A stretch of DNA of 64,000 nucleotides, taken from positions 20,872,698-20,936,697 of the forward strand of contig NC_057919.1 in the NCBI RefSeq assembly GCF_018873765.1, read 5' to 3'. The notes under the pieces were generated by a model. The model ran no database searches. It was not told the origin of the DNA and saw only the letters and a program-made list of their open reading frames with translations. Made by a program: the position numbers and the translations under genes. Shown one piece after another: positions 3,657 to 29,513 of this stretch (positions within the stretch are counted from its first letter, which is position 1; every line of letters begins with the position of its first letter). Origin of the DNA: Telopea speciosissima. Lineage: Eukaryota; Streptophyta; Magnoliopsida; Proteales; Proteaceae.

Positions 3657-3659
<3 letters not shown>

Positions 3660-3698
<39 letters not shown>

Positions 3699-4363: not shown

Positions 4364-4577
4364 AAATGGAAGAATAGCAGTGATAGTAGATCAAGTAGTA
4401 TAATTTATTATTATTAAAAAAAAAAAGTAATATGATTTATTTTTCTTTTTTTTTTTCAATTTTGCTGGAGGATGTATGGAAATCCCGTCTCCCTTGCCAT
4501 TTAGACTTGTGAAAGGGGATCTTCAATAGAAATAGGTTTTTCCTTTTTTTTTTCCATTTTTTGGGTGAGGTACCTTA

Positions 4578-5520
4578 GGCCATCTTTGGTATAGTTTTTA
4601 TTTTTTATTTTTGCCTTAAAAAACGTTTTTTTGTTGTGTTTGGTATCATTTATGGAGCCTATTTCTATTTTAAAAAGATTGAAAAAAATTAAAAAAAAAA
4701 ACAAAAAATAGATGGAAACCTCTTTATGATTTTTCCTTGAAATTTGTTTACCGCTATTTATACGGACACTTTAATGAGCATGTGCTCATAAACCCCAAAA
4801 TTGAAGGGTAAAATAATAAAATGCTTTTGTTTTTTTTAAAAGGCAAGCATATGACCCATTCTCCTCCTTCTTCATCGATCAATAGAGTGAATGGGGTTTA
4901 TCACTTTTATTTTTCTGAAAAAGGAAGCATTCCATACCATTTCACCAAATCTTAAATCTGCAATTCTTCTCTTCGAGCTAATATTTGTTCCAATCATTGT
5001 GTTCTTATAAGCTTTGGTGCCCACATACGCCAAGTTGACCACCTAATTTCACCAAGTCTTAAATCTGCAATTCTTCTCTTCGAGTAGGATTCCTTACTTT
5101 TGGATTCTTCCATAGCACCTTTTGGCGACAAACTACTCATCGGTGGTTCAGGGCTTCCAACATCTGTTGCTGCCACAATCTAGTCCACCATCTCCAACAC
5201 CTCGCTCATCTTGGGGCGTGCTTTTGGATGCCACACTAACCCTCTCTCTTTCCTCTTTTCTCTTCTTTTATTAGTCGATTTGAGCTTCTTTTCATCCCTT
5301 TCCCTTTTTCAGAAAAGAAGATGGGTGAAGAGGGAATATCTTCACACCATTTCTTCAAAAACTATTCTACACATAACCATACCAAACCATTTTTCTTTCT
5401 ATTTTCTAATACGTTTAATGTTTACCAAACGTTTTTTAGTTTATGATAAAAAATGGTTTTCATTAATGATTTTTGTTAAATAGACAAAAATCAAAAATAA
5501 AAACTATATCAAAGATAGCC
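4578..5520. mobile_element. PIF/Harbinger (Tourist)-like non-autonomous element carrying a kinase gene piece
   Basis: The left end GGCCATCTTTGGTATAG and the inverted right end (GGCTATCTTTGATATAG) form terminal inverted repeats of about 40 bp. The element is flanked by TTA on both sides (4575-4577 and 5521-5523), the 3-bp target duplication typical of PIF/Harbinger. It is 943 bp and has no transposase. Inside, a ~45-bp segment is directly repeated (about 4937-4985 and 5042-5088), and a host kinase fragment lies on the minus strand. Confidence 0.75.
4991..5232 (-). pseudogene. Captured C-terminal piece of a PBL-type receptor-like cytoplasmic kinase
   Basis: Read on the minus strand from 5232, the frame gives WHPKARPKMSEVLEMVD, then one in-frame TAG, then IVAATDVGSPEPP and an end of the type RRIADLRLGE with WRMWAPKL just before the stop. 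The ARPKMSEV block is the end of the kinase domain in plant RLCK-VII/PBL kinases, and the Arg/Trp-rich tail also occurs in that group. Only the C-terminus is present, with no catalytic motifs, so it cannot be an active kinase. It lies wholly inside the PIF/Harbinger-like element, which implies capture. The kinase class is likely; the subgroup is a guess. Confidence 0.6.
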
Positions 5521-5637
5521 TTAGTTGGAAGTGTTTTTTATTTTTTTTTGGAATGAAAACTTTAATTGGAAGTTATATTAAGAGAAGAGAGAAATTACAT
5601 CGTTTAGAGTTCCAAAAGTGGCTACTAGAACTATAGA

Positions 5638-6460
5638 TTTTTTTTTGCAGGAAAATAAAAAACTTAATTAAACAAAAAGAGGAGACATTGTCTGTTACAA
5701 CTCTATTCTGCTGGTTATGCCGAGCAGAGAGTGCTAGATCATGTGCCATAGAAATAAGAGCTCAGTCTTAATAATATTTACAGAATTAAAAATTTTAAGA
5801 GAAAAATGAATATCCCATAAAAAGGTGAAAATCTCCAAGTGTCAATTCAAAACCTCCACCTGTAAGCCAACGAAGCAAATCTCCACAATCTGTCCAAATC
5901 TCTAGGTTTCTATTGGTCAAGCCTTTGGTTAGTTCTATGTCTGAGAGGAGGCCTCTTATCTCTGCTTCCTGAGTTGTTCCTGTGAAACCAAAATCCATAG
6001 AAGCCAAAATATAAGAGTGATTTAAAACAACTCTACAAACCCATCTTGCTTGGCCGGTATCTTGTAAGAAACTTCCATCACAAATTAAGGTCAACACTTC
6101 GGCCTTGTGATCGCTAGGTAATACTCCATAGAAGGTTTACGGGTATTGGGTTGTGGAGTTGGTGGTGGTGGGTTATGAGAATGGAGTTTGAGGTCTGTTG
6201 TCCAACGATCCAACGATGGATGTTATGCATGAGGTGATTGGGGTTTGGGGTAGAGTGAAGAAAATTGCATTGGTTTCTAATTAACTTTGAAAAAAGTAAA
6301 TTAACTGATAGGTTTAGAAGAGAAGAGCTTCTGAGGTGTTCAGTTCTAAGTCCTAGAGGTTCTGTTGCCAAGATTCTCTTTGAGAAGGGACAAGAAACAA
6401 AAAAGATGCCTCCAAATGGTTATTTGAAATTTCGGAGTGTTGTACTAAGATTAATCAACT
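5638..6460 (-). mobile_element. 5'-truncated LINE fragment (zf-RVT end plus RNase H)
   Basis: On the minus strand the fragment encodes the end of a zf-RVT region (PLGLRTEHLRSSSLLNLSVN) and then an RNase H-like segment (CDGSF, later GTTQEAEIRGLL and IWTDCGDLLRWL) at about 6097-5795. It ends at 5638-5649 in a T run on the plus strand, the poly(A) tail in LINE sense. The two parts are in different frames, so it is dead. It resembles the LINE at 21671-22674, including the PLGLR-EHL block. Confidence 0.75.
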
Positions 6461-6566
6461 TTCTTTAATCTTTGTAATAATGATCTGATTATGCTAACTA
6501 GGCTCTTAGTTGAGGAAGCTAAGAGGAGGAATCGCAAATCTATTGTGATAGTGGATTTGGAGGTGG

Positions 6567-6607
6567 GATCCCACTCTCGTTCGAGAATGGTGAACGAGAG
6601 TGGGATC
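6567..6607. repeat. Perfect 16-bp inverted repeat around a 9-base loop
   Basis: GATCCCACTCTCGTTC is followed by nine bases and then its exact reverse complement. A related GGATGGGATCCCAACTCG block occurs about 80 bases further on, suggesting the remains of a foldback element. Confidence 0.8.
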
Positions 6608-7342
6608 GAGCCGCATAGATGACATCAATGTGGGACCCACTCGAAGTGGAAGCCATCTGTGTGGCTCGAACATAAGAGGATGGGATCCCAACTCGTGGAT
6701 GTGGAACATTTTGTATTATTTTTCTTATATGGGAAAAGGCTAGGTACGCCACTGGGCTGCCCAGCCTATGTCTCTCTCTCCACGCCCTTGGAAAAGACCC
6801 ATTGCACCTCTCATGCTTACGCCCCCATTGATCCAGCCACCCCATGCAAGTCAGCGAGTGATGAGTCACGTTCACATTCACGTACATGAGCATATGAAGT
6901 CCACTTTATAGGACCCACATAAATGGATTCCATCTGAATAACTGGGAGCTGTTCTCGAGCATGAACGTGAGTCCAACTAGTGGGCGGCCTGCCCATCCCT
7001 TGCCCTTTCCTTATTTTGCTTAATTCTAGCTCTTTTCTTTCCTCTTTCAAAAAAATGGAGCTTAATAGCACATATTGGCACACTAAAGTCACTAAATCAT
7101 GTCAGTGACTTGTCCCAGTGAGATTCCACTTCAATCAATTTTTAGCTATACAATCCTACACCAACTGGTCCTACACTATATATATATATATATATATACC
7201 ACCACGTTGAGAGGACAATACAATGCCACAAGGGCTGGGAAGAGAGGAGAGAGAGTCTCTAACAGGGGTCCACTTTAAAGCATTGATTCCGATACTTCAA
7301 AAATAGTTCATGTCAATAAGCAATGATTCTTCTTTTAGAAGA
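6608..7342. other. Gene-free stretch
   Basis: No gene is seen. Overlapping open frames on both strands between 6500 and 7090 share the same DNA and none looks like a known protein. A (TA)n run lies near 7176-7197. Pieces at about 6729 and 7015 (GGGAAAAGGC and GCCCTTTCC) may be ends of a small MITE, but the match is weak. Confidence 0.4.
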
Positions 7343-7351
7343 AAAAATAAA

Positions 7352-9255
7352 GGGTCAGGTGAACGTATGACGTATCCCCTATAATGCATCTAACATTCCT
7401 CATACCCCCTAAGTGGTTCAATATTCCACGTATAAGCTTTTAATATTTCACGTATTATTTCTATTTTACACCCCAAATACCAAATAGGTCTAATCTATTA
7501 AATATCACCGTTAGATGCCAAAATTTTGATCATCTTACTCTTTGCTATATTTTTTTAAATTTGAAAAGACTTAATTACCTTTACTTATTTGTTGTCTTAA
7601 ACTAATTGAAAATGATCATTTTATCATTTGTTTTATTTTTATAAATAAAAAAACCTAATTGCCCTCATTTATGTATTACCCTAACCTAATTTGAAAAGAT
7701 TATTTTACCCTTAAATAAGTGTTCCTAAAAACCCCAAAATGCCCTCATCTTCCCCAAATCATCATCTTCTTTTACATACCCACCACGGCCACCACCACCC
7801 ACCATTGGCTTTGGGTTCTAAGACAAATGCCAAATTGTTGTAATAACAAAATTTGGTATTCAGAGATTCACAACGAGGACATTTCTGTGGCTGCTGTGGT
7901 GGTTGTTGTTGTTGATTTTCACCTGTTGATGGTTTCACCCTCCGATCTTGCTGTTGCAGACTACCCATTTGCTCAACTCTCCCTCTTCCTCCACCCTCCT
8001 GCTGCATCTCTCTATCTATTTCTTGATTTCTTGATTTCTTCTTCTTCTTCTTCTCTTTCTCTCTCTGTTTGTGCTCTTCTAATACAGTAATATATCATAG
8101 GCAACAAAACAAATAGGTATGGTGCATCCAGATTTTGATTTTGGTGACAAGGGATTTCTGGGGGAGGTGCCTTGGCGGTTTCAGAATTAGAGAGAAGGAG
8201 AGTAAACCACTAACCTCAACGTGCCTACCTTCTATTCTCTAGTCTTAAAGAATCTATGGAAAGAAGAAAACAACGGCGAGATCGTTAGCGTTACCTGAGT
8301 ACAGATTCCTCAACACCTTCCCTTACCCTCATAGTCCTTATCCTTCACTTCCTCCCACGAGTAACAAAAGCGGGGGGCCAAGTAATAAAGAAGCAAGATA
8401 TCTATACTATCCAACGAAATCTTCAAGGATCTTTCTCTCTTTGCGATAGAAGAAGATCTCTTCTCTTGAACCCAAAGAGAGAGCAAACACAGAATTCATG
8501 GAATAAATTACTCTTCCGGCAAGGCTGATGAGAGTAGGTACTATCTCTGTGGGACGAGAGAGAAAGGGAAACGTCCAAATCCGTGAGGGAGAGATTACAG
8601 AAAAATGAGTTCAGTAGAAGTACAATCTGGGTTCCTTAGCGTCTGAATAATCGTAGTCACCCAGAAGAAAAAGGAAAAGGAAGGAAGACAGAAACCCATT
8701 TCATTCCATGGATCAAAAAACCCAACCCAACTCATACAACAAAACAAACACATACACAGGACAAAGACAGCGGAGACTGGAATGAAAAAAAAAAAAAACG
8801 GATTTTGGGTGGCAGTGGTGGTGGTGGTGGTGGGCAGTAAAAGAAGATGATGATTTGGGGAAGATGAGGGCACTTTGGGGTTTTTCAGGAACAAGTATTT
8901 AGGGGTAAAATAGTCTTTTCAAATTAGATTAGGGTAATACATAAATGAAGGCAATTAGGTCTTTTTATTTATAAAAATAAAACAAAGGATAAAATGGTCA
9001 TTTTCAATTAGTTTAGGGCAACAAATAAATGAGGATAATTAAGTCTTTTCAGATTTAAGAAAATGGAGCAAAGGGTAAAATGGTCAAAATTTTGGCATCT
9101 AACGGTGGTATTTAACAGATTAGACCTATCTAGCATTTGGGGTGTAAAACAGGGGTGATACGTGAAATATTGAAGGGTGGTACGTGGAATATTGAACCGC
9201 TTAGGGGGTACGAGGAATATTGGGTGCATTATATGGGGGTACGTGTACTTTACCC
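7352..9255. mobile_element. MULE-1: Mutator-like element carrying a Dof gene piece
   Basis: Long terminal inverted repeats of roughly 440 bp (about 7352-7790 and 8815-9255) match along most of their length. The ends are GGGTCAGGTG and, inverted, GGGTAAAGTA. An exact 9-bp target duplication, AAAAATAAA, flanks the element (7343-7351 and 9256-9264), the hallmark of Mutator-like transposons. The 1.0-kb interior has no transposase; it holds the leader and first codons of a Dof transcription factor gene on the minus strand. This makes it a Pack-MULE-type non-autonomous element. The near-intact repeats and duplication suggest fairly recent insertion. Confidence 0.9.
7835..8007 (-). pseudogene. Captured 5' piece of a Dof zinc-finger transcription factor
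   Basis: From an ATG at 8007 the minus strand encodes a Gln-rich N-terminus and then KCPRCESLNTKFCYYNN, the first half of the Dof zinc finger (consensus CPRC, NTKFCYYNN). The match stops in the middle of the finger near 7835, where the MULE inverted repeat begins, so the second CxxC pair is missing and no DNA-binding domain could form. Upstream, about 8008-8810 on the same strand looks like the donor's 5' UTR and promoter-proximal DNA, with possible splice-like sites. Known Dof proteins bind AAAG sites; this copy cannot. The identification is strong because the motif is highly conserved. Confidence 0.85.
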
Positions 9256-10953: not shown

Positions 10954-11093
10954 AAAGGATGTACCCAGTACATGAGGTTTCCGCCACAGCAGGATTTGGA
11001 GAGGGTCATAATGTATGCAGCCTTACACCTACTTCATGGAAAAGCTGTTTTCAAAGACTCAATCCTGTGATCACTTGGTCACTATAGTTACCA
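10954..11093 (-). mobile_element. Au-type SINE, degenerate
   Basis: In minus orientation the sequence runs GACCAAGTGATCACAGGA, then AAAACAGC, GTAAGGCTGC, GACCCTCTCC and ends TGTACTGGGTACATCC before a short T tract. These are the successive landmarks of the tRNA-derived Au SINE. It has diverged more than the copy at 36113-36279, so it is probably older. Confidence 0.7.
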
Positions 11094-12367: not shown

Positions 12368-12784
12368 TCAAGACGACAATGAAGAAGAAGAAGCCGAAGA
12401 AGAGGAAAGCTTTAGGCATTCATTTTGGCATCTACGAAGGCAAATATCGTTCCAATCGGGCACTTGGTGTTGATTAACGCAGACAGTGCGGGCACAAGCA
12501 TCTGTGCAGGCGTCAAGCTCAGACACACCGCATACAGTAACACAGGTATCTGGAGTTGGGTCTTTGGAGAAAGCACCAACCTTCTTCAGCATTCTCTTTG
12601 ATGTGCAAACCCTCTCACATACAAAAATGTCGTCGGAGCTCTTCTCCCTCCCTCTCGCACTCTTCAACCTCTGCTCCTCGTCACGCCTTCTCTTCATCCT
12701 CAGCCCTTGCCCTGCAATTACAGCCGGTATGGCAGCCCCTAATAAACCCCACCATAGTTCCACCATCACGATCTCTCCAAACAC
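12368..12784 (-). CDS. Small conserved plant protein with CX3C cysteine pairs and an N-terminal hydrophobic segment
   Basis: The protein has 138 residues in one exon. Residues 8-26 (VELWWGLLGAAIPAVIAGQ) form a hydrophobic segment that could be a membrane anchor. A basic stretch (KRRR) follows. The C-terminal half has ten cysteines, eight of them in CX3C pairs: C56/C60, C81/C85, C93/C97 and C115/C119, plus C102 and C123. The tail is a Ser run. The block around CGVSELDACTDACARTVC looks like a conserved plant family of unknown function. Twin CX3C spacing is seen in small mitochondrial intermembrane-space proteins, but no function is claimed. The start at 12784 is the first ATG; a second Met is at residue 7. 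Confidence 0.75.
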   Translation of the reverse strand: MFGEIVMVELWWGLLGAAIPAVIAGQGLRMKRRRDEEQRLKSARGREKSSDDIFVCERVCTSKRMLKKVGAFSKDPTPDTCVTVCGVSELDACTDACARTVCVNQHQVPDWNDICLRRCQNECLKLSSSSASSSSLSS

Positions 12785-13774: not shown

Positions 13775-14567
13775 AGGAAATTTATACATACTATCCCTGA
13801 GGTTTAATAAAAAGATATTTTCACCCCCAGTTTTGGAAAATTTTGCATACCTTACTGAGGTTTGCAAACGATAACAAATAAGCCCATTTCGTCAGTTCAT
13901 GACTAACACTGTTAAAAATTAGATTTGAACTGATGGAATTGCTTTTCTAAGAAGAACCCAAAAAAACAAAAAACAAAAAACACAAAACCTGCAACTCATC
14001 TTTCCCAAAATCGATTAGGGAAGATGAGTTGCAACCTTAAAACATTTGCCACTCAATCACTCCTCTTCAACTTCTTTGCCTGAACCGAATCATCACCATC
14101 TTCACCATCACTCTCTGCTCCACCCTCAAACCCTAACCCTAAACTCTGATTGGATGCAGAACAACCCACCATGGTTCATCGTCCTCCTTCTCTTCTGCAT
14201 CCTCGACTGAACTCAGAAAATCTGAAATCTCCCTAGGAATTGAACAAGAAACAGATCAGAGAAAATGAGTCCGATCGTGGAGGTCTTGTCTTCTTGTCTT
14301 GGTGGTCTTTGAGTGTTGTCATGCTTTGATTCTTCTCTCATTTTTCATCTTTTCAAACCAACCTACCTATCCACATGTCCGTCCAATCCTCTTTAATGTC
14401 TTTTTCTTTTTTGTTTTTTTTATTTATTAAAAATTAAGAATCCTCTATAAAGTCAAAACCATTAATCTAAGCTCTATTTATCTCTAGCTCGAACTTTTTA
14501 TATAATATAGATCCATTCTAAACGAGAGAAGAAGAAGGAGGAGGAGTCTCTGGAAGGCCGTGAAACA

Positions 14568-14648
14568 ATGGCAGAAACGGAACTAACGTTGGAGCACATG
14601 CCAACATGGGTTGTAGCCGTTGTCTGCAGCGTTATTGTCGCTATTTCT
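14568..14648 (+). pseudogene. Captured MLO gene, start of exon 1
   Basis: From an ATG at 14568 the frame encodes MAETELTLEHMPTWVVAVV and then CSVIVAIS, the extracellular N-terminus and first membrane segment of MLO proteins (the PTWVVA and VIVAIS blocks are typical). After 14648 the similarity stops where an inverted-repeat insertion begins. MLO proteins are seven-transmembrane proteins linked to powdery mildew susceptibility and calmodulin binding; this is only a fragment. Confidence 0.75.
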
Positions 14649-14654
14649 CAGAGA

Positions 14655-15170
14655 AGACAGACACTTATTTATGCCTAATATCATTTAAGTAAATGCTTTT
14701 GTATTTGTATTTCATTTACTTAAGATATTATTCATACATAAGCAAATAGTCCCCATTTGAATCCAATAAAAATAGTTAAAAAATCAAATTCCAAAAGAAA
14801 AAAAAGTCAACCCCCCAGTTCAAGAATAAAAACTGGATTTTCGACGATAGATGCAATTTTTAATTTTCTAATGCTGGGATTTTTCTCAAATCTAAAAATT
14901 TCAGAAATCTTATTATGGTAAAACATTGCTAAAAACTAAAAGTGCGGTAATATATTCATTTGTTTTGACGTCCAAAAAATTATTATCATTCAGAGTGATT
15001 TTGACAGCATTCGCGCACACCGTATTAAGTTTGACCAGTACATAACTCTTTCAATATAAATCAAATTTTAGCAATCTTGGACTTGTTTGAAAGCTTTTCA
15101 ACAAGTCCAAGATTCCTTAAATCTGATTTATATTGAAAGAATTATTTAGGCATAAATAAGACTGCTTGTC
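14655..15170. mobile_element. Small inverted-repeat (MITE-like) insertion inside the MLO piece
   Basis: The left end (GACAGACACTTATTTATGCC) is mirrored on the right by GGCATAAATAAG and, just beyond, GTGTCTGTCC, with an intervening small indel. The interior contains two hairpins (about 14679-14730 and 15044-15143). There are no coding features. Its exact right edge, somewhere between 15170 and 15215, is uncertain. Confidence 0.45.
15044..15143. repeat. Long hairpin with ~45-base arms
   Basis: The left arm (CTTTCAATATAAATCAAATT then TCTTGGACTTGTT) pairs with the right arm (AACAAGTCCAAGA then ATTTATATTGAAAG) with only a few mismatches around a short loop near AAGCTTTT. The size resembles a miRNA precursor or young MITE-derived hairpin. 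Confidence 0.7.
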
Positions 15171-15451
15171 CTGTGTCTGTCCTGGTTTCTAGAATAAGTA
15201 AGTGTCTGTCCTGCTTTCCCACTAACTGAAACTCCTATTTGGACTTTGTTTTTGCAAAATATAATAATGCCATTATACTTAAATGGCCTAAAATAAGCTG
15301 TATACCGATTTTCAGACCCAAAAGAGGTCTAAAACCCACCGAGATGGGCTTCCGAGTCAGAAAAAAAAAAATGCACAAACTCGGCGAGATCTCGGCCCAA
15401 CTCGGTTTTTTGCTAGGTCGAGATGGCTCCGAGACCCGAGTTTTTGAACCT

Positions 15452-16053
15452 TGATATCAAGAGAAGAAGAGGACGGAGAGATAGCCTGAGTTGAAAGAGA
15501 ACACTCTGTCCAGTATTTGCACCCTATTACTGCACTGGGTTGCAGCAAATCTGCCTCCCAAGATAAAACAGGCTAGACTGATTACTGATTTGCAGAGACA
15601 GTAATCACTTGAAACTATCAGAGATTTTATTAATGTCTGACTGACTGAAATCGTACCACAAAAATTGAATGATTTGAACTGTCCATTTCACATCTATTTA
15701 TAGTGGTGGATGTATCCCTTCAAGATACCTCATGGAATGGGTGTGTCCATTGACATGAGTAGATAGGATTAAAAGATTCTAATCCAAGCACTCATATGTA
15801 AGTGTCTCTTGAAGATACCCCATGGTGTAGATGTGTCTCTTGGTTCAATGGATTAGATTAAAAGATTTCAATCCAAGTGCTATAAATGCACTATTACAAA
15901 TGGATATGTCTCTTTGAAGATACATGTCCCTTAGCCAAAAAATCAGGCCAACATTGAACCAAATAATGATCCAAAATTGCCAAAAAATCAGACCAACATT
16001 GGACCAAAGAATGACCCAAAACCGTTCACACAATTATTGAAAAAATTCCAACA
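15452..16053 (-). repeat. Copia-1 3' LTR
   Basis: This 602-bp repeat matches 20574-21213 throughout. In element sense it begins TGTTGGAA and ends near TATCA. Confidence 0.85.
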
Positions 16054-19000
16054 ATTTTCCCCAATTTTTAAAATAATTAAGTCCCAGTCAATAACCTCTC
16101 TGTACCTTTAAATCATACGTACATAAAGGTCTCTTTCGATTTGAACCTTCATGTTGTCAAAATACATTAGAACTTGTCAAAATCAAAATGGACGAGGCCT
16201 TGAACTTAGAATTTATAGCGACAAATCTCATATACTAGACATATGATTTACTTAACATAGTTTCAAAAATACCCGCACATTTATGGCCTTGTGATTTCAT
16301 CTTAGGTTTTCATAAGTGCCTTAGAGACAAGCTTTGAATCTCGCAGAAGCGGCCCCATTTTCTGCACTTATATAGGTGAATCTAATAATATGCAAATGTA
16401 TGACTTGCATTTCCTATACGACATAGATTCATTAAAGGATTGATCCTATCCTCTGTCTGTTTCTCTATACATACATGCACTACCTTGAGATGACAAGAGA
16501 TATTATCTCTACTAATTAAGTGCATAACCGGTTATTACTACAAGTGTTTTCCATTGAACTAGATGACTAGATGTTGGTCTAGTGTTTAGTTGGTTTTCAC
16601 TTGCAGGTTACTTCTCATTTAAAAATTTTAAACCCATCTCCCTGGAAGTCTTCCATACCACATCCCTACCTAGGCTTTTTGTAAAGGGATCAGCCAAATT
16701 TTTCTTTGACTTTACATAACTAATAGTCATAACTCCCTTGACGAGTTGTTCCCTTACATAGCTATGTCTTAAACTGATATGCCTTGACTTTCCATTGTAA
16801 ACTTTATTATAAGCTCTTGATAATGTTGCTTCATTATCACAAAATATTGATATAACAGGCATTGGTTTAGGCCACAGAGGAATCTCTGTTTATAGGTCCC
16901 TAAGCCATTCTGTTTCATTTACTGTCATTACTAAAGCAATAAACTCAGACTCCATAGTGGAGTGTGAAACCATAGTCTATTTTTTGGATCCCCAAGATAT
17001 TGATGCTCCACCCAAGGTAAATATCCAACCACTTGTGGACTTTGATTCATCAGATCCTGTAATCCAATTTGCATCTGTGTATCCTTCTAGTACTGCGAGA
17101 AAATCCTTATAACTTAATGCATAATTCATTGTGCCCTTTAAGTACTTAAGTACTCTAGAAACGGCATTCCAATGAATTTGTCTAGGATTATGAGTAAATC
17201 TACTCAAAACACCAACTGCAAAAGCTATATCAAGACGAGTACAGTGCATGGCATATATTAAGCTACCAATGATACTAGAGTATTCTAATTGAGATATACA
17301 ATTCCCTTCATTAGAAGTTAATCTAATAGAATGATCATATGAGGTAGCAACTGGTTTACAATCCTCATTATTGAATATCTTTAATATTTTCTTTATGCAA
17401 TGAGACTGTGCTAAAGAATTAGAATCAGAAGATCTAACAATTTTGATTCTCAAAATTACGTTTGCTTCACCCATATCTTTCATATCAAAACATGAAGATA
17501 GGAAAGCCTTTGTCTCTAATATAATACTTGAATTAGTACCAAAGATTAACATATCATCAACATATAAGCATATTATAACACCATGTCTATTCTTGAATTT
17601 AGAATAAACAGATTTATCAGATTCATTTATTCCAAATCCATTTGCTACAACCTTTTGGTCAAATTTATCATGTCATTGCTTAGGAGTTTGTTTTAAACCA
17701 TATAAAGATTTGATTAGTTTACAACCCTTGTTTTCCTGGCCTTTTAAAACAAACCCTTCAGGTTGTTCCATGTAAACTTCTTCTTCTAAATTTTCATTTA
17801 GAAAAATAGTTTTAACATCTATTTGGTGTATAACAAGTTTATTAATCGATGCTAAAGCAATTAACAATCTAATTGTACTAATTCTAGCAACTGGAGCATA
17901 TGTATCAAAATAGACAATACCTTCCTTTTGCTTAAAGCTCTTGGCTACAAGCCTAGCTTTAAACTTATCAATGGTTCCATCAGTTTTAAGTTTTCGCTTG
18001 AAGATCCATTTACAACCAATAAGTTTAAATCCAAGAGGTAAATCTGTTAAAACTCATGTTTTATTACCCATGAAAGAATCCATTTCATCATTTATAGCGT
18101 CTTGCCAAAAGGTAAAATCTTGAGAATTCATGGCTTCTCGAAAAGTCAATGGATCATGTTCAACATTATACAGACAAGAATATGTAACTTCATTTCTATT
18201 TCCTTCTACCAAGAATTGATAGAAATCTGGACCAAAGGATTTTTCTACTCTAACTCTTTTACTTCTTCTTAGTTCAGCACTCTCATTATTTTCAGAGTTT
18301 GATTGAACTGTATCTTGATCCTCCTTATTTGTATCTTCATTCTTCCGTTTCCTAGAGAATGAATCCTCAAAGAACTCAGCATCTCTAGATTTCAAAATTA
18401 TATTTTGACTAACGGTCTCTGTAGATTTCATCGTTAAGAATCTATAGGTCTTGCTATGTTGGGCATAGCCAATGAAAATACATTCAATTGTCTTTTCACC
18501 TAATTTAGGTCTTTTAGGATCAGTTAACCTTACTAATGCTCTACATCCCCATACTTTGAAATATCCAAGAGAAGGTTTTCTCTTCATCCAATATTCATAG
18601 GGAGTGATATTAGTCTTTTTATGAGATATACGGTTAAGTATATGACAAGCAGTCATTAATGATTTCCCCCATAAATTCTTTGGTAAGTTAGAAGTAAGTA
18701 AAAGTGTATTCACCATTTCTGTTAGAGTCCTATTTATTCTTTTCGCTACTCCATTCTGTTGAGGACTATAAGGTGTCGTTATTTGATGGATAATTCCATA
18801 AAGTTCACAGAAATCATCAGTAGAGAAGTATTCATTTCCTCGATTAGTTCGTAAGATTTTAATCTTACGATCTAATTGATTTTCAACTTTGGCTTTGTAG
18901 ATTTTGAATTTCTCCAAAGCCACATCTTTAGTCCTTAACGGGTATACATATGTATATTTTGAACAGTCATCTATAAAAGTGATGAAATATCTTTTACCAC

Positions 19001-20573
19001 CTCTAGTTAGAATACCTTCTAACTCACACAAATCAGAATGTATCAATTCTAAGAGTTGTGTATTCCTTTCTACTTTCTTAAAAGACTTCCTAGCAATTTT
19101 AGACTTGATGCATACAGAACATTTGTCTTGACTAGAAGATGTGCATTCCGATAATAAACCTAATTTAACCATATTTCTCATGCACTTATAATTAATATGG
19201 CCAAGTCTAGAATGTTATGTATCAAAAGTAGAAACAATATAAGCAGAATATGAATTTTCATTAATCACACTAAACTTATACATGCCATTCGATGCATAAC
19301 CTTTTCCAACATAAATTCTCCCTTTAGACATGATGATGTTCCCTGACTCAAACAGGATTTTAAACCCATGTTTGTCAAGCAAGCTTACAGATATTAAATT
19401 TTTCCTAATATCAGGGACATGAAGTACATCATTCAAAGTAAGTTTCTTTCCGGATGTGAGATTTAGAACCACTGTGCCTTTACCTATGACCTTAGCAGTT
19501 GAAGAATTTTTCATAAAGAGATCTTATCCATCTGCTATAGGTTCATAAACTTTGTACAGATTTTTGTTCTTGGCAACTTGTTTGGTTGCACCAGAATCTA
19601 TCCACCATTCCTCATCATCACCAACTGTGAATGCTTCAGATATCACAGTAGCCCTATCATCATTGTCAACAATGTTGGTTTGGTCCTTTTGTTGCTTCTC
19701 TTTGAGATAGACTCGACACTATTTCTTGAAATGATCGACTTTTTCGCATTTTCAACAAGCCGCTTTAGGGTTAGTAAAACTACCCTTCTTCTTTTTCGAA
19801 ACAAATCCTTTCCCATCAAAGTTTCTCTTTTTGCCCTTAGAAGATGCATTTTCCATAACATGAGCCTTTGGAGATTTTTCCTTCAATTCAGGTTTATCCA
19901 ATTTACGAGAATTCTCTTCAACTTTGATATACTTTATCAGCTCTTGCATAGTCATTGCATCTTTCTTTTGTTTCAACTCTTTCCGACAGTCTTTCCAAAC
20001 AAGAGGTAACTTAGAAATAATTGTAGATACTTGAAAAGACTCATCAAGAGAATGACCCTCAGAGATTATTTGATTCATGAGATCTTGCAACTCATAAGTT
20101 TGTGAAATAATAAACTTATCACCTACCATTCTGTAATCAAATAACTTACTTACAAGAAACTTCTTGTTGCCAGCATCCTCAATTTTGTACTTTTTGTCGA
20201 GATCCTCCCATAGTTCTCTCAACGTGCTGTATGCAAACTTGTACTCATACACATCATAAAGTGTGTTTGATAACCCATTGAGAATGTAGCCCTTGCACAT
20301 GAAGTCTTCTTGTTCCCACTTCTGGCGTTGCTGTTTCTGTACCGGTGTCTCTCTACTTGAAGTTTCTCCAGTGGTGTTTGTCGATGCTGTTGGCTTCTCT
20401 TCATTAAGAACATGTGCAATCTTCAAAGCAGTGAGGAAGAAATACATCTTCCCTTTCCAACGCTTGAAGAACGAACCATCAAACTTATCCAGTTTGGTGA
20501 TCTCGTTCCCAGGTATCTTCATCAATGTTGTCTCCTCCATTGATTAAATACTGTCTTAAGATTGTTAAATAAC

Positions 20574-21213
20574 TGATACCAAGAGAAGGAGAGGACGGAG
20601 AGATAGCCAGAGTCGAACGAGAATGCTCTGTCCTTAAGACAGTATTTGCACCCTATTACTGCACTGGGTTGCAGCAAATCTGCCTCCCAAGATAAAACAA
20701 GCTAGACTGATTACTGATTTGCAGAGACAGTGATCACTTGAAACTATCAGAGAATTTATTAATGCCTGACTGACTGAAATCGTACCACAAAAATTGAATG
20801 ATTTGGGCTGTCCATTTCACCTCTATTTATAGTGGTGGATGTATCCCTTCAAGACACCTCATGGAATGGGTGTGTCCATTGACATGAGTGGATAGGATTA
20901 AAAGATTCTAATCCAAGCACTCATATGTAAGTGTCTCTTGAAGATACCCCATGGTATAGGTGTGTCTCTTGGAAATACCCCATGGTGTAGGTGTGTCTCT
21001 TGGTTCAATGGATTAGATTAAAAGATTCCAATCCGAGTGCTATGAATGCACCTTTACAAATGGATATGTCTCTTTGAAGATACATGTCCCTTAGCCAAAA
21101 AATCAGGCCAACATTGAATCAAAGAATGAACCAAAACTGTCAAAAAACCAGACCAACATTGGACCAAAGAATGATCCAAAACCGTCCACACAATTATTGA
21201 AAAAATTCCAACA
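20574..21213 (-). repeat. Copia-1 5' LTR
   Basis: This 640-bp repeat matches 15452-16053. It is longer mainly because a ~31-bp internal unit containing CCCCATGGT is present twice and because of one short indel near the end. Confidence 0.85.
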
Positions 21214-21399
21214 GGTAATGTCTTTTTATCGTTTCTTTACCACATTCTTTTCTCTCTAACACTTCCCTTTTCTCTGGAAGTTCTCTACTATCTCTTTTTT
21301 CCTTTGCTTCATTTTTAAGGGTTTCGAATTTTGCTGCAACTTGGAAGCTGAATTGCGCTATTTTTTTTTTTTTTTTAATTTTTGTGCGATTGATTTCAG

Positions 21400-21465
21400 T
21401 ATTTGAAGAAGAAGAATCAGAAGCCGCTCTTTAAAGCTTTGCAAAAAGTTAAAGATGAGTTGCAG
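21400..21465 (+). pseudogene. Captured MLO gene, exon 2 piece
   Basis: After a TTTCAG acceptor the frame gives YLKKKNQKPLFKALQKVKDE, the first cytoplasmic loop of MLO proteins (KKNQKPL and ALQKVK are typical). It joins the MULE-2 right inverted repeat at GATGAGTTGCAG, which serves both as MLO codons and as the conserved TIR motif. With exon 1 at 14568 it shows that the donor was captured as genomic DNA with its intron. Confidence 0.75.
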
Positions 21466-21670
21466 GTTTTGTTTTTTTTTTTTTTTGTTCTTCTTAGAAG
21501 GGCAATTCCGTCAGTTCAAGTCTAATTTTTAACAGTGTTAGTCATGAACTGACGGAATGGGCTTATTTGTTACCGTTTGCAAACCTCAAGGGGGTACGCA
21601 GAATTTTCCAAAACTGGGGGGTGAAAATATCCTTTCGTCAAACCTCATGGGTGGTATTTGTAAATTTCCC

Positions 21671-22674
21671 ATTTTTCTATTGCAACACCAAATTTCCTTG
21701 ATGGGAATCTGTTCTTCCTGTGCTTTCTTCCATCGTTGGTTGATTCCAAAAAGTTCTACTTCTTTAGCATCCTGGATGTTTATGCTACCTGCATCTATTA
21801 GGAAACTTTGTCCATCTATCAAAATACCAAAAGTCCACTTTGCTAGTTTTAGATCGGATTAAAAAATTCCTGCGATCATTAAAACAGAAAATTCCAGATG
21901 AAGGTTAGCAAATATTGATAAAAGTGGAGGAAAATGTGTGCTTTGTGGTGATTCCAGTGTGGGAGTCGTTGGTAATGGTGGGTGAAGATTCAAATTTGTA
22001 ATCCATCTAGAAAGATTATGGATGACCAACATAAGGTCAGCCTTACCCGCACACAATAAAACATTATTTCTTATAGACCAAATATAATAACAGATTATAA
22101 TAAAAACAAAAAAAACCAACTTAAAAATTGTTTATCAAAGGCCTTGAAGCCAAGGAAAGATTCGCAGAGGTGGATAAGAGAGGGAGCAGAGAGATGCTCG
22201 TTTCTTAATCCAAGAGGTCCACGGGCCCAGATACACTTAGTCCAATCACATGATAAGAAAAGATGTCAGATCGATCCGTCGTTAGAACCACAGAAAACAC
22301 AAGAAGGCTCAATGGGCATCCATTTCGAAAGAGAAGCTCTGACAGGGATTCTTGCATTTAAAACACGCCAAAAAAAGATTTTAAAACGAGGATGAATGTT
22401 AATCTTCCAAAAAAAATTCCACCATAGAGAATGTATTGGCCTAGGAGCGTTAGATTTGGCAATGAAGTTGGCAGCCTGCTTTGTTGAGAAAATTCCATTT
22501 TTTTGAAATTAAACATCTCAACATATCAGCACTGGAAGAGGTATTAATCCTAAGAACATTATTAACAGTCATTGGTGAATAACAAGATTGTAAAAGTGAA
22601 CAATTCCAATGATTGTTATGGACTCTATGTTGATGATATTATCCTCATAATTATTATCGATGCAATTTATTATC
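21671..22674 (-). mobile_element. LINE fragment (zf-RVT and RNase H parts) between MULE-2 and MULE-3
   Basis: In minus orientation the fragment encodes zf-RVT-type sequence (HPRFKIFFWRVLNARIPV, CVFCGSNDG, GPLGLRNEHL) and then an RNase H start (KWTFGILIDGQSF). Stops and frame changes are present. It is interrupted at 21670 by MULE-2 and continues at 13774. It reaches the MULE-3 target site at 22674, so MULE-3 may have hit the same LINE; whether it resumes after 29513 is unclear. Confidence 0.7.
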
Positions 22675-23217
22675 GGGTAATTTACACATACCACCCTTGA
22701 GGTTTAACGAAAGTATAATTTTACCCCCCAGTTTTGGATAATTCTACGTACCCCCCTGAGGTTTACAAATGTTAACAAATACACCCATTCCGTCAGTTCA
22801 TTACTAATAGTGTTAAAATCAAGGGGTAAAGTTACAAAAATACCCCTTCAAGAAAAAAAAAAACCTGCAATTCATCTTCCCCAAATAGTTTAGGGTGGGG
22901 GGAGATGAGTTGCAAGTTAGATCTAGCTAAGATGAAAATCTCTGGTTCAATCTAGAAGGAAGAACATCAATGACAGCCTTGTAAAGGTACAAATGCCGTC
23001 GGATTTGTCAATATCCTCATCCCAGTCTCATCCCCAAAGACAAGCATGAACCTTCCTGGATCACTTTTTATTTTATTTACACTACAACTAAAATGGAGAA
23101 CAAAATTACATTGTTGAACCAAATACAGTAAAATAAGGAAGCTTGCTTTGGGTTTGTTTGGTAGAGAAATCAGATATGAACAGGGGAAGACAGGGGAGGA
23201 AATCTCAAACCATCTCT

Positions 23218-23640
23218 TCACCCAATAGTAAATGCAACTGTCTGAGTGCAACTTTTGAGATGATCTTTTATGTCGATTTCGTTATCGGAAGCAGGAAATC
23301 TCCAATTCATTAATGGGTTCTTCACTTCTTCGATTATGAAGATCCCAAGCTTCAGAAATATAAGGTCTTGGAATTGCAGATTCGTCAATAGTTGTCTCTT
23401 CTTCATTAGATTTTTTCCCCAATCTCTGCAAACCAGGAATGATAGAAACCAAACTTGAATCTTTATCTTCTTTAGAGAAAACAAAACTCAGATCCATGAA
23501 CCCTTTTAGCTCTTCAAACTCAAGGGCCGATAAGCTTTTGCTGCTACCCCTCCTTCTCAAGTCCCTCTATTTCTTAACAGGTCTCTTCGATCTTTTCTGT
23601 TCTTATCTGATGTATTTTTTTTAATCAAGTTAACAGTTTA
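23218..23640 (-). pseudogene. Captured DUF1685 gene piece with stop and frameshift
   Basis: On the minus strand the frame encodes KRSKRPVKK, a TAG, then RRRGSSKSLSALEFEELKGF, MDLSFVFSKEDKDSSLVSII, PGLQRLGKK and RPYISEAWDLHNRR. A frame change near 23300 leads into PLMNWRFPASDNEIDIKDHL. These blocks (SLSALEFEELKG, PGLQRLG, RPYISEAW, and a C-terminal IDIKDHLK) follow the plan of plant DUF1685 proteins, whose function is unknown. Sequence down to about 22960 may be the 3' flank of the donor gene. The premature stop and the frameshift make it a pseudogene. It lies between the MULE-3 left repeat and the inner unit. Confidence 0.7.
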
Positions 23641-24022
23641 TAAGAAAAATTGAAATGGGAGTGGAGATGGAGATTGTATGGAGAAGATGAAGAATTTATA
23701 GAAACGTAGAGAGATATAATAATCCCTTTAAATGCCATGAATGCCAGGCAGTTTGCACCTGATCTCAACTCTCATGCCTGCGAATCTTGTGCCGCTTGCA
23801 AGAACCCCCACCGCCCAACCTCCTCTTAGCTAGATCTAAGGGACCGTTTGACAACGTTTTATTTCTGTTGTTTCTATGCCAATAATGTTCCCATCACACA
23901 AATGGCACAGAAAAACCGTTTGATAAATCTGTTTTGTTTCAAATGTTTTTGATAACAAAAATCAAAATTTTTAACAATTTATGCCCAAAAAAGGTTTCTG
24001 ATATAACAACTATTTGTTGTTT

Positions 24023-25428
24023 AGATTATTTTCAAATGTACCTCTTGAAAATAGCCAAACTTATAGTTGCCTCCCTGAATTTTCATTAATTCCACATGCA
24101 CCCCTATTTTTCAAACTAAGTATTACTATAGTCCCTGCCGTTAGACAGACATGTTATATATAATGGATCCCAGTTTTTGAACATCTATGGACCATTTTAC
24201 CCTTTGATAGGATAGAATGACCAAAATGACCTTACCTGAAAAAAGAAAAAAGAAAAAAAAATCTGCAACTCATCTTCCCCAAATCGTTTAGGGTTTGGGG
24301 AAGATGAGTTCTTGAATCGATGGACCATCTTCCCTTGGATGAGGCATAATCCCCCTAAAAATCGGACCCGAAGGTCTGCTCCCACTCAAAATGTCTACCC
24401 AGTACCCATCTTCTTTCAACATTTCTGTACTGCACATGACACATGTTCAGCCTCCAAATTCAAAGAACGAAGAAACCGAGGCATCAAATTAAAGCATGGG
24501 TTACTATCTTCCATCAATTTTCCCAATCATGTGCTTCAGAAACTTGAGGAATAAGACACTCGATGAATTTTAAATTCAGGGAACACAAAACTCATGATGA
24601 ATCCGAAGAGAATAAAGGAAAATGGAGACTTAACCACAGTCTTGCACTCTTTCTGGAGTTGTGCTTGAAAAAAAAAAGAAAAGAAAGAAGAGGCAAAGCA
24701 GTCATGAAGCTAAAGCTAGAAACCCTTCAATTTCTCTTTCAATATTCATTCCTGTTACAGACAATATGCTCCCAAATAACCTTATGGCTCAAACTTACAT
24801 AAGAACCACGTTAAAATAATGCACATGGATAATAAAAAAATGGAAACTACGTAAAACTGTGAATCACTAAGCGCTAGATATTCAATACCCTTTTTGCCTT
24901 CAAATCTTTGTGTGTACTTAGTGCCTTGGGAAGACTTCTCAAGAAGAAAATGGATAAGTGGGGGAGGCGAGCAATCTAATGTACAAATAAAAGAAATGTC
25001 GAGGAAACAAAAGTTACAACCGAATATGGAAGAGGATTCAGGGTACCCATTCATTTGGGTTGTGAGATGGAAGGAAGAGGATGAGCAGAGATGGATGCCA
25101 GAAGGGCTTGAAGAGAGGATTAAAGGGAAGCGATGTTTGTAGGCCAGGGGAAGATGGTCCATCGGTTCAAGAACTCATCTTCTGCAGGTTTTTTTTTTCT
25201 TCTTTTTTTCCAGATAATGTTATTTTGATAATTTTACTCTATCAAGGGGGTAGAATGATCCATCGATTTGTTTAAAAATTGGGATCCGTTATGTTATAAC
25301 GTCTCTGTCTAACGACAGGGACTATAATGATACTTAATTTCGAAAGCAGGGATGCATATGAAATTAATGAAAGTTCATAGGGGCAACTGTAAGTTTAACC
25401 ATTTTTAAGGGGCATTTGGAAATAACCC
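24023..25428. mobile_element. MULE-4: Mutator-like element carrying a glycosyltransferase piece
   Basis: The inverted repeats run about 24023-24334 and 25143-25428, with ends AGATTATTTTCAAATG and, inverted, GGGTTATTTCCAAATG. The flanks TTGTTGTTT (24014-24022) and TGGTTGTTT (25429-25437) match at 8 of 9 positions, fitting a 9-bp target duplication. The interior has no transposase. It is nested in the inner unit of MULE-3 and shares the subterminal CTCATCTTCCCC motif. Confidence 0.8.
24936..25142 (+). pseudogene. Captured piece of a UDP-glycosyltransferase gene
   Basis: The plus-strand frame ends with SGYPFIWVVRWKEEDEQR and WMPEGLEERIKGK. This is the stretch just before the PSPG box in plant family-1 UDP-glycosyltransferases (PFIWVVR, then LPEGFEERIKG). 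The PSPG box itself (WAPQ to HCGWNS) is absent because the MULE-4 right repeat begins there, so the sugar-donor site is missing. Upstream residues are more diverged. The class is likely; the substrate cannot be inferred. Confidence 0.65.
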
Positions 25429-25439
25429 TGGTTGTTTTT

Positions 25440-28400
25440 ACAATTTTGTGTCTTGTATCAAAAACTGTTACTCGATAAAACCTTGCAATACGCGAACCAT
25501 ATGTCCAAACTCTCGCTCAACCTACGGCAGAAAGGCACCATTCGAGCATAGCAAACCCTCGAAAACCCTAGGCAGCAACCTGCAACTCTCCTCTCTATCG
25601 TTCATCTCTCTCTTGCTTCTGTCATCGTCCTCACCTCAAGCTCGAGATCTCTGCTGCTGTCTCTCCACCGTCCAGGTAAATCTCTCTCTCTCTGTATCTC
25701 TCTTTCTCTGTCTCTCTCATTCATGGTGGAATGACATGTCAACAACATCTGCTATGTACCGATTACAGCACCCCAGGACAGAGACTCGACTGCTGCTGTG
25801 AACCCTCGTTTGGGAGAACGATGGGTTAAAACATCTCTGTCTCTGCTATGAACCCTCGTTTGGGAGAACGATGGGTTAAACCCCTATCTGTTCCAAGGTT
25901 CTGTCTCTGTTTCCCGCGGTCGTCTCTGCAGTCCACGATCTACCATCGGCCACTGCTCGCAGTCGCAGGTAAATCTCTCCTTTCTTAGCTTAGGATTTTT
26001 GGTAGATTTGTCTCCTCCCTTCTTAGCTTAAGGTTTTCGGGTTTCCATTGTTGGGTTTAGATCACCCTCTGGCCTCCTTAGCCTGATTAGGTTCTTGTTT
26101 CTGAAATTCGGTTTTTTCTTGTTGGGTTTTCTGCTATCAATTTATGGCCTTGGCTGCATTACATGTTTACACTTTTCCATAGTTACGTTTAATTTTTTCT
26201 GCTTACACTTGCTCCCATTTTTTATCTTTTTGTTTCGTCCTTTGAATTCATTATCTATCTCCAGTCAACAATGGCGATGGATTTCTATTATGCTTCCCAA
26301 GCCTTTCGGTTTCCATTAGCTTCTTCCTCGGTAGCTTTGATGCAGTTAATTTAGCAATGACAGTTAATTTGGATCTTTGGTCCTAATTTAGTTGCTCATC
26401 TTGCTGAATGGATTGTTTTACTTGTTTAGGTTTCAGGATTAAACCCATGTCGGTTAATAGCTTGAATCAAGATTCTATCACTAGTTATGTATATGCATGC
26501 TTGAAATTTGTATGGGCCTAATTATTTTGACATGATAAGTAGAATTAGTTTTGTGTTGATTCTTATTTGAAATCATGTTCTATTATATCAATTCAAGCAT
26601 GTAAAAGATTCTGTTGTTTACATAATTTGTCAATAGTTGCATCTATTTTGGTTTTAAAAACTTTTTTTTTAATGGGCCTACACCAGCATGCATATGGACA
26701 AATGTGGCTTTCTGTTTTGGATATGTGGCTTACTTCTCTTCTGATCAATGGATAGAATCGTGGCTTTCTTGTTAATTGTTTCCTTGTTTCAAGTTTTACC
26801 TACTTAAGTATTGTGATTCATGTTGGTCGGTTGGTGTTGCCTTGGTGAAATTGTCAGTAGTATGCTGCATTTTTTATATTTTTTTGGCCTAGAATTGATT
26901 CACACGTCTGCAGAATTAGTGACAACCAAATAAAATTTCCAAAATTATGTGTGTTAGAATTAGTGGGCATAGGTTGTACATCAAAACATGATTCTGGAAT
27001 TCTAAGAATTGAGCTTAGAACTCAAGACTAGGATTTCACAAGTTTTTTAAAAATCGAGACTCTAGAATTCAGCAAGAATTTGGAATTCTGGGAATTAGAA
27101 TCTGAACCAAAAATTTCAGGACAGGGTAAGGTGGGGTAAAGGATTTTTCAGCAGCAAATAAGTAGGAGACTTGTAAAAGAGAGACAAGAAAAGTCAACTC
27201 ACCTGCTGCTTTTCCTTCATCGCATAGCCGAGAGAGAGAGAGAGAGAGAGACAGTTTGATAGTCACAATTAAAGGTGTTTGCCGGTTTATGAACACAGGA
27301 TTTCTAAATCCAAGCTAGAAAAACTAGAAAGTGGTTTGAAAACACAGGGTCTCGAGAAACAGAGAAATAGCTAAGCAAGTTCTTATTTAATGATGAATGA
27401 AAGAAAATTTATATCTTGCAAAAGACTGGTTGGTATGACTTGAAATTCAGATCATAGTCTACTTGAGACCTGCAGAATTTGATGAAATCCCGACAACAGA
27501 ATAAATGAGTTTCAATGAAGTCCTACTGCTACTAGGGAAACAAGTAGCAGAACCAGAACAGTTCTACTGAGCAGTCCTACACAAATTGGAGCCTTTAGTT
27601 AATTATTAGTGGGCCACCAACCAAACTTCTACATCAGTTTGCTTTCTTTGTTGCCCCTCTTGAAATTTTTACTCTCACCTCCTTTTGTTGTGGTTATCTA
27701 CTGAACATCTGAGAGGCAATTGAAAATTTTATTCTCACCCCCTTTCAATGTGGTTATCTATTGAATACCTGAGAGGTAATATATGTCCACTTATGAGGAT
27801 GAAAATGACACCAACAAAATAAGCAGATTTTCAATTCCTCTTTCTTTTTTCCCTTTGGGGTGAGGGGTTGGGAGTGGGGAAGTCACCAAATTTAATTAAG
27901 GGATTGGTAGAGAGAAATGGAAAACTGGGGTTGCAAGGCCTGAATAATTCATCTTTAGTTTATTTTTACCCATTACTCTGCCAAACCAGTCCTTGAACAT
28001 GGCTATCCGTGAGAATGTGGGCACTGTTCCTTTTAGAATAGACTTTTTTTTAAAAACTTTTTTACCAAAAGTTTTAACAAGCTTTTGGATCTTACACATT
28101 TTAAGTAATGGATCTTATCATGTTGTACCCTTTGCCAACTGATACAAGAAAAATGGAATGGAAGGTGAACCTGGAGAGAAACCAGAGGACAGCAAAGAAC
28201 ACATCATCCTCCAATGCCATGGTCACTTCCATGACTCCCTTAGCTGCAGTAGTTGAAAGAGAAGAGATCACTAACTCTAGCCCTGTTAATGGTTTCGTAA
28301 TTTCTTTCTTCCTTCAAACTGACATCAGTACTGGGTTTTAATAAGGGGAGCTAAGGGGATGGGTGAGTTAGAGAAAGCTTGTTTCTCTAACTCTTCTAGC

Positions 28401-28870
28401 TCCAGCCCTGTTAGTGGTTTTTTTTTTTTTTTTTCCTTCAAAGAGACATCACTGGGTTTTAATAAAGGAAACTAAGGGGATGGGGGAGTTAGAGCAAATG
28501 GGTTGGGAAGTGTGGTTTGGTGGGGTCAAAGTGGGCCGTTGGCCAATCTGTTTTTAAGTCCCACCTTACAAAAGCCACAAGTGGCCTAGTATTGCACTGT
28601 GAGTGTAGAGCAAGTATTCAGTTCTCCTGTCCAGCAATAAGAATCTGATTCAATTATCCTCTTCTTTGCCATCCCAAATCCATAATTTGGGACTGAGGAA
28701 CATTTACACTAGAAGTATTATTGGGGGGAACATTTTCTTTTCTTTTATTTGTTTATTTTCACTTTTTTTGACATGTAGAATGAAATGATTGATTGTGTTT
28801 AGTATTATCATTGAAGCATGGTTTGTGGCATGGTCTCATGGTTACTTGTAAATTTCAAACTTTACTTGTT
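25440..28870. other. Host-like DNA inside MULE-3, origin unknown
   Basis: The beginning (about 25500-25980) looks like a gene leader: pyrimidine-rich, CTCTCT runs, several GTAAATCTCTC-type donors, and a near-duplicate ATGAACCCTCGTTTGGGAGA repeated about 45 bases apart. No protein is recognised. A (GA)n run lies near 27231-27250. At about 28235-28500 a unit of roughly 130 bases containing CTAACTC, CCCTGTTA and GGGTTTTAATAA occurs twice, with divergence. Confidence 0.4.
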
Positions 28871-28961
28871 GGGTCTTTAGCTCAAATTGGTAGAGCACTT
28901 GGAACATGAGGATGTCTCAAGCATGTTCCAAGAGGATGGTGGTTCGAATCCACCAAGACCT
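28871..28961 (+). tRNA. tRNA-like gene or pseudo-tRNA with oversized central hairpin
   Basis: GGGTCTT at the 5' end pairs with AAGACCT at the 3' end. A D-arm (GCTC/GAGC) and a T-arm (GGTGG TTCGAAT CCACC) are present, including a perfect B box GGTTCGAATCC and a near-consensus A box. A T7 run follows at once, as for Pol III termination. In place of a normal anticodon arm there is an 11-bp stem, CTTGGAACATG with CATGTTCCAAG. No loop with U33 can be placed, so no anticodon is assigned. It may be an intron-bearing, mutated or co-opted tRNA. Confidence 0.55.
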
Positions 28962-29513
28962 TTTTTTCAATATTTTTTTATTAAAAATAATTTTTAATGT
29001 CTTATCATCCATGACTTTATATGTATTTTAGTAAAAATGGTAATTTTGTAATTTATATTAATCAATACAAAATTGTTACAGAAAAAGGTTTTATCAAACA
29101 TCTTTCAGTATGAATAGTGTTCTGGATACGTTTCTGAAACAGGTTTATCAAACACCTTTCAAGAAGCCAGTAACGTTATTCTGGTAACAGTAACACCAAA
29201 ATACGTTTTTAGTTAGAAACGGCACAAAAACACTAGTAACGTTGTCAAATGTTGCCTAACTTGCAACTCATCTTCCCCTTTTTCAAACCCTAAACGAGTT
29301 GGGGAAGATGAGTTGTAGGGTTTTTTTTTTTTTTGGAAGGGGTATTTTTGTAACTTTACCTCTTGATTTTAACACTGTTAGTCATGAACTACTGAAATGG
29401 GTGCATTTGTTAATGTTTGTAAACCTCAGGGGGTATACAAAATTATCCAAAATGAGGGAGGGGGTAAAATTATACTTTCGTTAAACCTCAGGGGTGGCAT
29501 GTATAAATTATCT

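Follow-up and report, generated by a model that had tools for sequence, protein, structure and literature searches.

Results

Pack-TYPE elements in the window

We analyzed a stretch of 64,000 nucleotides (referred to as the window), which corresponds to C4:20872698-20936697 of the 822.9-Mb Telopea speciosissima assembly. Positions 4578-29513 contained one PIF/Harbinger-like and four Mutator-like (MULE) elements, all with terminal inverted repeats (TIRs) and target site duplications (TSDs). The following features were identified (A- and B-type refer to MULE backbones described below):

4578..5520: E1, PIF/Harbinger-like element, TSD TTA, with the 3' end of a PBL-type kinase gene at 4977-5232, coding on the minus strand
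7352..9255: E2, MULE, TIRs of ~430 bp, TSD AAAAATAAA (9/9), cargo 7833-8798 being the 5' part of a Dof gene, coding on the minus strand
13775..21670: E3, MULE, B-type TIRs, TSD ATTTTTTTA/ATTTTTCTA (8/9), cargo 14279-14649 and 21215-21455 being the 5' part of an MLO gene
14650..21213: stack splitting E3, composed of a high-copy repeat (14650-15451) and a copia-like element
22675..29513: E4, MULE, A-type TIRs, TSD TTTATTATC (9/9), holding a two-gene chimera; sisters L034 and L035
23064..23598, minus strand: DUF1685 gene piece in E4, donor L038
23599..23618: filler in E4, ~20 bp, present in neither donor
23619..23733: start of the HD-ZIP IV-type upstream piece in E4, donor L070 (C6:10259378, 88%)
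23841..29256: H2, PIF/Harbinger-like element nested in E4, TSD TAA, ends GGGACCGTTTGACAACG / GGCAACATTTGACAACG
24023..25428: E5, MULE nested in H2, TSD TTGTTGTTT/TGGTTGTTT (8/9), two-donor cargo

Both superfamilies had been named in the original prediction, which also described the inverted repeats and target duplications as visible; all of these were recovered computationally for E1-E5. Genome-wide searches found donor loci for the cargo of all five elements elsewhere in the same genome, and the cargo included pieces of PBL-type kinase, Dof, MLO, DUF1685 and UDP-glycosyltransferase (UGT) genes as well as a second, unnamed locus that accompanied the UGT piece. Pfam searches on the pieces or on their donors agreed with the five gene names proposed earlier, and TIRs, TSDs and donor loci upheld the view that these are five DNA transposons with host-gene pieces. 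However, the assignment of one host gene to each element was not supported, as E4 and E5 each join two donor loci. In addition, two features went beyond the earlier description: the nested PIF-like element H2 and a chimeric cargo common to several element families. Locus counts given here are lower bounds, as the best 40 candidates were scored in most genome searches.

Sister copies with TIRs were detected elsewhere for each of E1-E5, and therefore capture of any piece at the window site has no support and was ruled out. Neither the matches of the pieces to host loci nor the sister copies, which likewise lay within TIRs, contradicted capture by the elements. No TIR pair was found around host loci L005, L017, L038, L047, L061 and L062. 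All of E2-E5 possessed three hallmarks of Pack-MULEs: long TIRs, a target duplication in the 8-11 bp range (9/9 in E2 and E4, 8/9 in E3 and E5) and an interior derived from host loci that exist elsewhere, the larger E5 donor (L047) being unnamed as a gene. The script used for TSDs searched +/-26 bp around the aligned TIR ends and tolerated one mismatch, which makes the 8/9 duplications of E3 and E5 weaker. Without later insertions, E2-E5 are 1.3-1.9 kb long. Taken singly, the five elements are ordinary Pack-TYPE elements; they are putatively non-autonomous (one Pack-PIF and four Pack-MULEs) and would have arrived with the cargo already inside.

The clustering is partly nesting, with E5 inside H2 (a sixth element) and H2 inside E4. 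Outside the cluster, a scan for inverted repeats of >=40 nt with arms <=8 kb apart, which short-TIR elements would escape, detected three pairs in 29600-64000 and none in 1-4500, all shorter than the MULE TIRs. A pair outside the cluster at 55569-56826 was 48 nt long and 90% complementary, with 1.16 kb between the arms. Two LINE-type remnants were also observed, both on the minus strand: an RNase H-like RVT_3 at 5795-6136 (Pfam 3.2e-5) and a zf-RVT at 22266-22508 (Pfam 2.7e-12).

Elements with a single donor gene

The arms of E1 are 43 nt long and 88% complementary, and TTA flanks both ends. Its family is large (the best 40 of 1006 candidates were scored), and among the matches listed the kinase piece occurred at two other places: C1:76328761, in the same TIRs (the sister with TIRs is at C1:76328169), and C2:14816739, without TIRs. 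The latter is the donor, L005, which was 95% identical to the kinase piece. Thus, a 3-bp TTA duplication, matching TIRs and a TIR-free donor identify E1 as a Pack-PIF/Harbinger element. The short kinase piece gave no Pfam match, and the kinase label therefore rests on the donor, which matched Pkinase at 4.3e-15; in PDB, BIK1 and PBL2 are among the named plant kinases closest to it.

The E2 piece contained a Dof domain in the window itself (Pfam 9.1e-10). Its donor, L017 (C9:15564133), was 94% identical, covered 7833-8798 in one piece and had a 335-aa ORF bearing the Dof motif. The match list looked modular, but L017 spans the cargo unbroken, and we rejected a multi-donor chimera for this element. 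Most of the cargo was also present at 11 other loci, the donor and ten more (L010-L016 and L018-L020). E2-type TIR sequence was found at both ends in seven of these ten; L010 and L019 had it at one end only, or a remnant at the other, and L016 is a copy of the cargo without TIRs. The TSD search found none for L011 and L013 and only implausible inner matches for L010 and, among copies of other elements discussed below, L039, L044 and L046, indicating that TSDs are not visible at every sister copy.

For E3, the piece matched Mlo at 1.3e-4 (Pfam), slightly short of the curated cut-off, and the donors were two TIR-free MLO loci, L061 and L062 (88% identity, 94-95% over the second part). Three sisters (L022-L024) have the same TIR type and the same MLO 5' piece, each with a 9/9 TSD. 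The stack at 14650-21213 was absent from sister L022 and represents a later insertion; the LTRs of its copia-like element (15452-16053 and 20574-21213) are 89% alike, and the query containing its high-copy repeat had 3383 first-look candidates, 40 of which were scored. This repeat is ~800 bp long, has an internal inverted repeat and adjoins the copia-like element; together, the two replaced ~35 bp of the MLO piece.

Nested elements H2 and E5

Part of the H2 interior was in common with other copies, and three A-type relatives (L034, L035 and L073) contain the H2-free version of the site. The right end of H2 (28733-29256) belongs to a high-copy repeat; the whole query had 1502 first-look candidates, of which 40 were scored. 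This repeat contains a tRNA-like sequence at 28871-28962 (Rfam RF00005, 53 bits) whose anticodon arm is extended by a long insert. ARAGORN called this sequence in three of four further copies, never with a normal anticodon, and it is well conserved. The repeat is possibly a tRNA-bearing PIF-like MITE family.

The E5 cargo consisted of ~690 bp (24336-25025) from locus L047 (C7:4.90 Mb, 92%) and 99 bp (25032-25130) from a UGT gene, the only part of E5 that is UGT. The candidate UGT donor, L069 (C4:20135871), was 98% identical over the 99 bp and is located 0.76 Mb away on the same contig. The short piece had no Pfam match, so that the UGT label rests on the donor (UDPGT, 5.1e-24); the search for a gene at the larger donor locus, L047, gave no name. 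Sister L046 has the identical C7-locus/UGT join. Another candidate, L048, was rejected as a further copy: its matches do not extend into the UGT piece, and the search for TIRs there found none.

A two-gene chimera in E4

The first E4 piece matched DUF1685 at 4.5e-4 (Pfam), slightly short of the curated cut-off, and its donor L038 (C2:66175355) was 91% identical and contained a 237-aa ORF. E4 and its relatives track L038 up to position 23598 and then diverge, and L038 and its paralog L067, the DUF1685 host loci for which the alignment spans the whole stretch, share another upstream sequence. Beyond the filler, the elements track L070 (C6:10.26 Mb) over 412 bp at 88%. Because of a deletion, 115 bp of this second piece are left in E4; it is full length in L034 and L035. 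The gene downstream of the L070 stretch contained a START domain (1.7e-13) and a HALZ (leucine zipper) match below the cut-off (0.013); its homeodomain exon had no Pfam match, and a PDB search gave a weak match to PROTODERMAL FACTOR 2 (E 0.2). Based on the START domain, the weak leucine-zipper and PDB matches and motifs typical of such proteins, we take this gene to be HD-ZIP IV-type.

One junction on four MULE backbones

We detected the DUF1685/HD-ZIP junction at 12 loci, 11 of which were read (the window included) and one of which (C4:207545-211002) is known from a two-piece match only (C4:208235/210178). Backbones were assigned by terminal sequence, except that L039 and L040, whose ends are incomplete, were assigned by shared interior:

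Backbone A: E4 of the window, L034, L035
Backbone B: L036, L037
Backbone C: L039, L040, L041, L043, L044 and, by matches only, C4:207545-211002
Backbone D: L042

The filler was present in all 11 loci read (<=3 mismatches tolerated, <=2 seen) and absent from the other loci among the 82 compared, donors included, save for L033 and L045, which are re-cuts of the window. All 30 first-look candidates of the junction query were scored: DUF1685 host matches ended at query positions 122-193 (C2:66175355 at 187), the HD-ZIP locus C6:10259378 covered query positions 208-619, and no fused DUF1685-HD-ZIP host locus was found among the 30. This absence, together with the location of all 11 junction loci read in MULE-type elements (L039 and L040 with incomplete ends), argues against what we regard as a very improbable origin of the shared junction, that a lost or unassembled host fusion was captured separately by several MULE families.

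An identity matrix of TIRs with free gaps was discarded, as shuffled sequences already reached 75% on average and up to 84%, and 14 terminal segments of 200 bp were compared instead. Here, A and B aligned with each other (74-88% over 141-195 bp) and C and D aligned weakly, whereas A/B and C/D had no similarity at E<1e-3; there were also two short matches to the E2 end (B_L079, 20 bp; C_L044, 24 bp). TSDs were 9/9 in E4, L034, L036, L042 and L073 and 8/8 in L037, and L035 had only a 7/8 match, in poly-A. No clear TSD emerged for the C elements, the best matches falling in TA-rich simple repeats (L041, L043) or inside the element (L039, L044), and one end of L039 is partly missing. In the C-type element L040 (C9:8340278-8343768), the cut left end adjoins a B-like TIR, and this element is a possible hybrid of the B and C lineages.

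Proposed order of transfers

Elements in intermediate states were also identified. L073 is a cargo-free A element with TSD ATAATAAAA, in which the A body is present on the left and right and the chimera is absent. In B elements, the order is DUF1685, filler, HD-ZIP piece, 44-47 bp of A body and then B's own sequence; this A body (44/44 bp in L036, 46/47 bp in L037) was also found in cargo-free L073. The left part of B matched a candidate third host locus, L080 (C7:7.02 Mb, 92%), which had no Pfam match and which we presume to encode a serine-rich protein. L079 is a B-type element that contains the third-locus piece and lacks the A chunk. In L036 and L037, a 48-bp stretch of the captured third locus repeats inverted beside the other TIR arm (L037:2426-2473), a pattern resembling the copying of captured DNA in the direction of the TIR.

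In C elements, a piece of a cold-shock-domain gene (candidate donor L081, 90%; CSD 1.5e-24) is joined to the DUF1685 piece, and D has the same cold-shock|DUF1685 junction plus the 28 bp before it. Shared junctions and the A body in B suggest three or more transfers from element to element, namely from A to B, from the A lineage to C, and between C and D in one direction or the other. A chimera that formed once and was passed between elements at least three times is the simplest reading. Of these, transfer into C is the least certain, as no A-body sequence was seen in C elements and C/D lies beside A/B in both trees, never nested inside A. The HD-ZIP-region tree grouped A with B (86/83) and C with D (100/99); the DUF1685 tree was poorly resolved (two of 11 inner branches starred, with hosts L038 and L067 beside C/D) and left the order of transfers unresolved.

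Separate capture from a fused host locus would gain from the same observations, since a lost or unassembled fusion may have fed C separately; the left breakpoints of the three chimera chunks also differ (about 23062, 23150 and 23228), and the trees do not place C/D within A. Nevertheless, the A body that adjoins the HD-ZIP piece in B and C's cold-shock junction in D mark the A-to-B and C/D steps as element-to-element. Given that A and B TIRs are related, the A-to-B step alone could count as exchange within one lineage, and the same applies to C to D. Their relatedness is also consistent with common descent of one chimeric family whose ends were overwritten by recombination or gene conversion with other MULEs, for which an inner-TIR motif of A, B/E3, E5 and E2 (see below) could supply homology. 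We consider such TIR replacement improbable: the breakpoints are located in cargo or body rather than in TIRs, pieces of other host loci sit there, and both A without cargo (L073) and B without the A chunk (L079) exist. In addition, the left junctions at base level had a 2-bp overlap in C and two extra bases in B, with no long homology, which fits repair copying with template switches better than homologous exchange.

Discussion

Taken together, the sequence comparisons make it very probable that the Pack-TYPE elements arrived with their cargo and that the chimera formed once and was then relayed between MULE backbones. An A-type MULE would have taken up both host pieces, DUF1685 and HD-ZIP IV-type upstream. 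A B-type MULE with the third-locus piece already inside may then have gained a contiguous chunk of an A element, and a C-type MULE may have taken a smaller chunk beside its cold-shock-domain gene piece, the predicted source being an early A-type element of a kind not seen among the copies. The D-type MULE would have taken C's composite, or the reverse. As a mechanism we propose that a break or excision gap in the recipient was repaired by copying, in which the polymerase would jump into another element as into any genomic template. The relay suggests that such elements hand captured DNA to one another, as judged from one cargo only.

Re-mobilization of two neighboring insertions could yield the same structures. 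Under the model of Gisby and Catoni (2022), a pair of B or C elements that had inserted at a short distance from each other, within or beside an A element, would lose their facing ends and re-mobilize with the A interior between them; this is a rival for the mechanism and not for the relay. The A-derived chunks in B and C are indeed contiguous, and the authors propose the model for all DNA-transposon superfamilies in the available part of PMC8903248. We nevertheless consider it rather unlikely here, as two insertions within ~1 kb are required for each relay step and the model by itself leaves the unlinked host pieces and the 20-bp filler in A unexplained.

In A, B/E3, E5 and E2, the motif ACTCATCTTCCCCAAA, a near-palindrome and often a hairpin, was located ~190-390 bp inward of the element ends (24260-24310, 22870-22935, 29258-29320, 13990-14033 and 7740-7775 in the window). 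The inner TIRs of these MULE families have it in common, although their outer TIRs cannot be aligned. It was seen in 16 of 18 elements, with 0.25 matches expected over all 18 in single-base shuffles; the motif was chosen after being noticed, D and E1 lack it, and C has a weak version. The right cargo junction of E3 coincides with it. This motif is a lead only and not a result, and it may help exchange between families that otherwise cannot be aligned. More tentatively, and with some doubt on our part, MULE families of this genome might share a circulating pool of captured host DNA that leaves its genes only once and is then serially relayed between unrelated families, with gene pieces added at some steps. 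If so, transposons would become combinatorial chains of gene fusion.

What deserves specialist attention is the relay of this marked chimera from one MULE backbone to another, which rests on one cargo. A elements with and without the chimera, B elements with and without the A chunk, and the C and D elements form a series whose breakpoints can be set against each capture model. Should relay prove frequent, the number of captures scored as independent and the estimates of donor and age for Pack elements would be biased, and multi-gene chimeras would form more rapidly than through repeated capture from genes.

Comparison with known systems

Pack-type elements have already been published for broad-leaved plants, including tomato Pack-MULEs (PMC3310237) and Arabidopsis Pack-CACTA, which is mentioned in PMC8903248 and PMC13317346. 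We found no account of cargo passing between TIR families in the open-access literature, as covered by titles and the starts of abstracts, with subscription journals mostly outside. A 2026 review (PMC13317346) states, in its available part, that a yet undiscovered mechanism is conceivable for unlinked host DNA in DNA transposons.

The elements described here resemble Pack-MULEs of rice and tomato (PM-ZIBP, PMC3310237) in their long TIRs, 9-bp TSD, host-gene pieces and occurrence in several copies. Unlike Pack-MULEs as portrayed in the accessible text of PMC3310237, one chimeric cargo is present here on four backbones and in two mutually dissimilar TIR lineages. E1 is similar to PIF/Harbinger Pack-TYPE elements (3-bp TTA, TIRs, a kinase-gene piece and a sister with the same cargo), with no notable difference from their description in the available part of PMC8903248. 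Template switching, with short microhomology or small insertions at breakpoints, would be shared with FoSTeST/gap-filling Pack-TIRs in animals; in the excerpted text of PMC8277862 the template is non-TE host DNA, whereas in our case transposons, too, would have served as templates. Finally, as in Brassica napus Helitrons (PMC11986588), a carrier of one gene piece can acquire more; those elements, however, are rolling-circle and gain genes, and the part of that paper available to us describes no cargo handed to another family.
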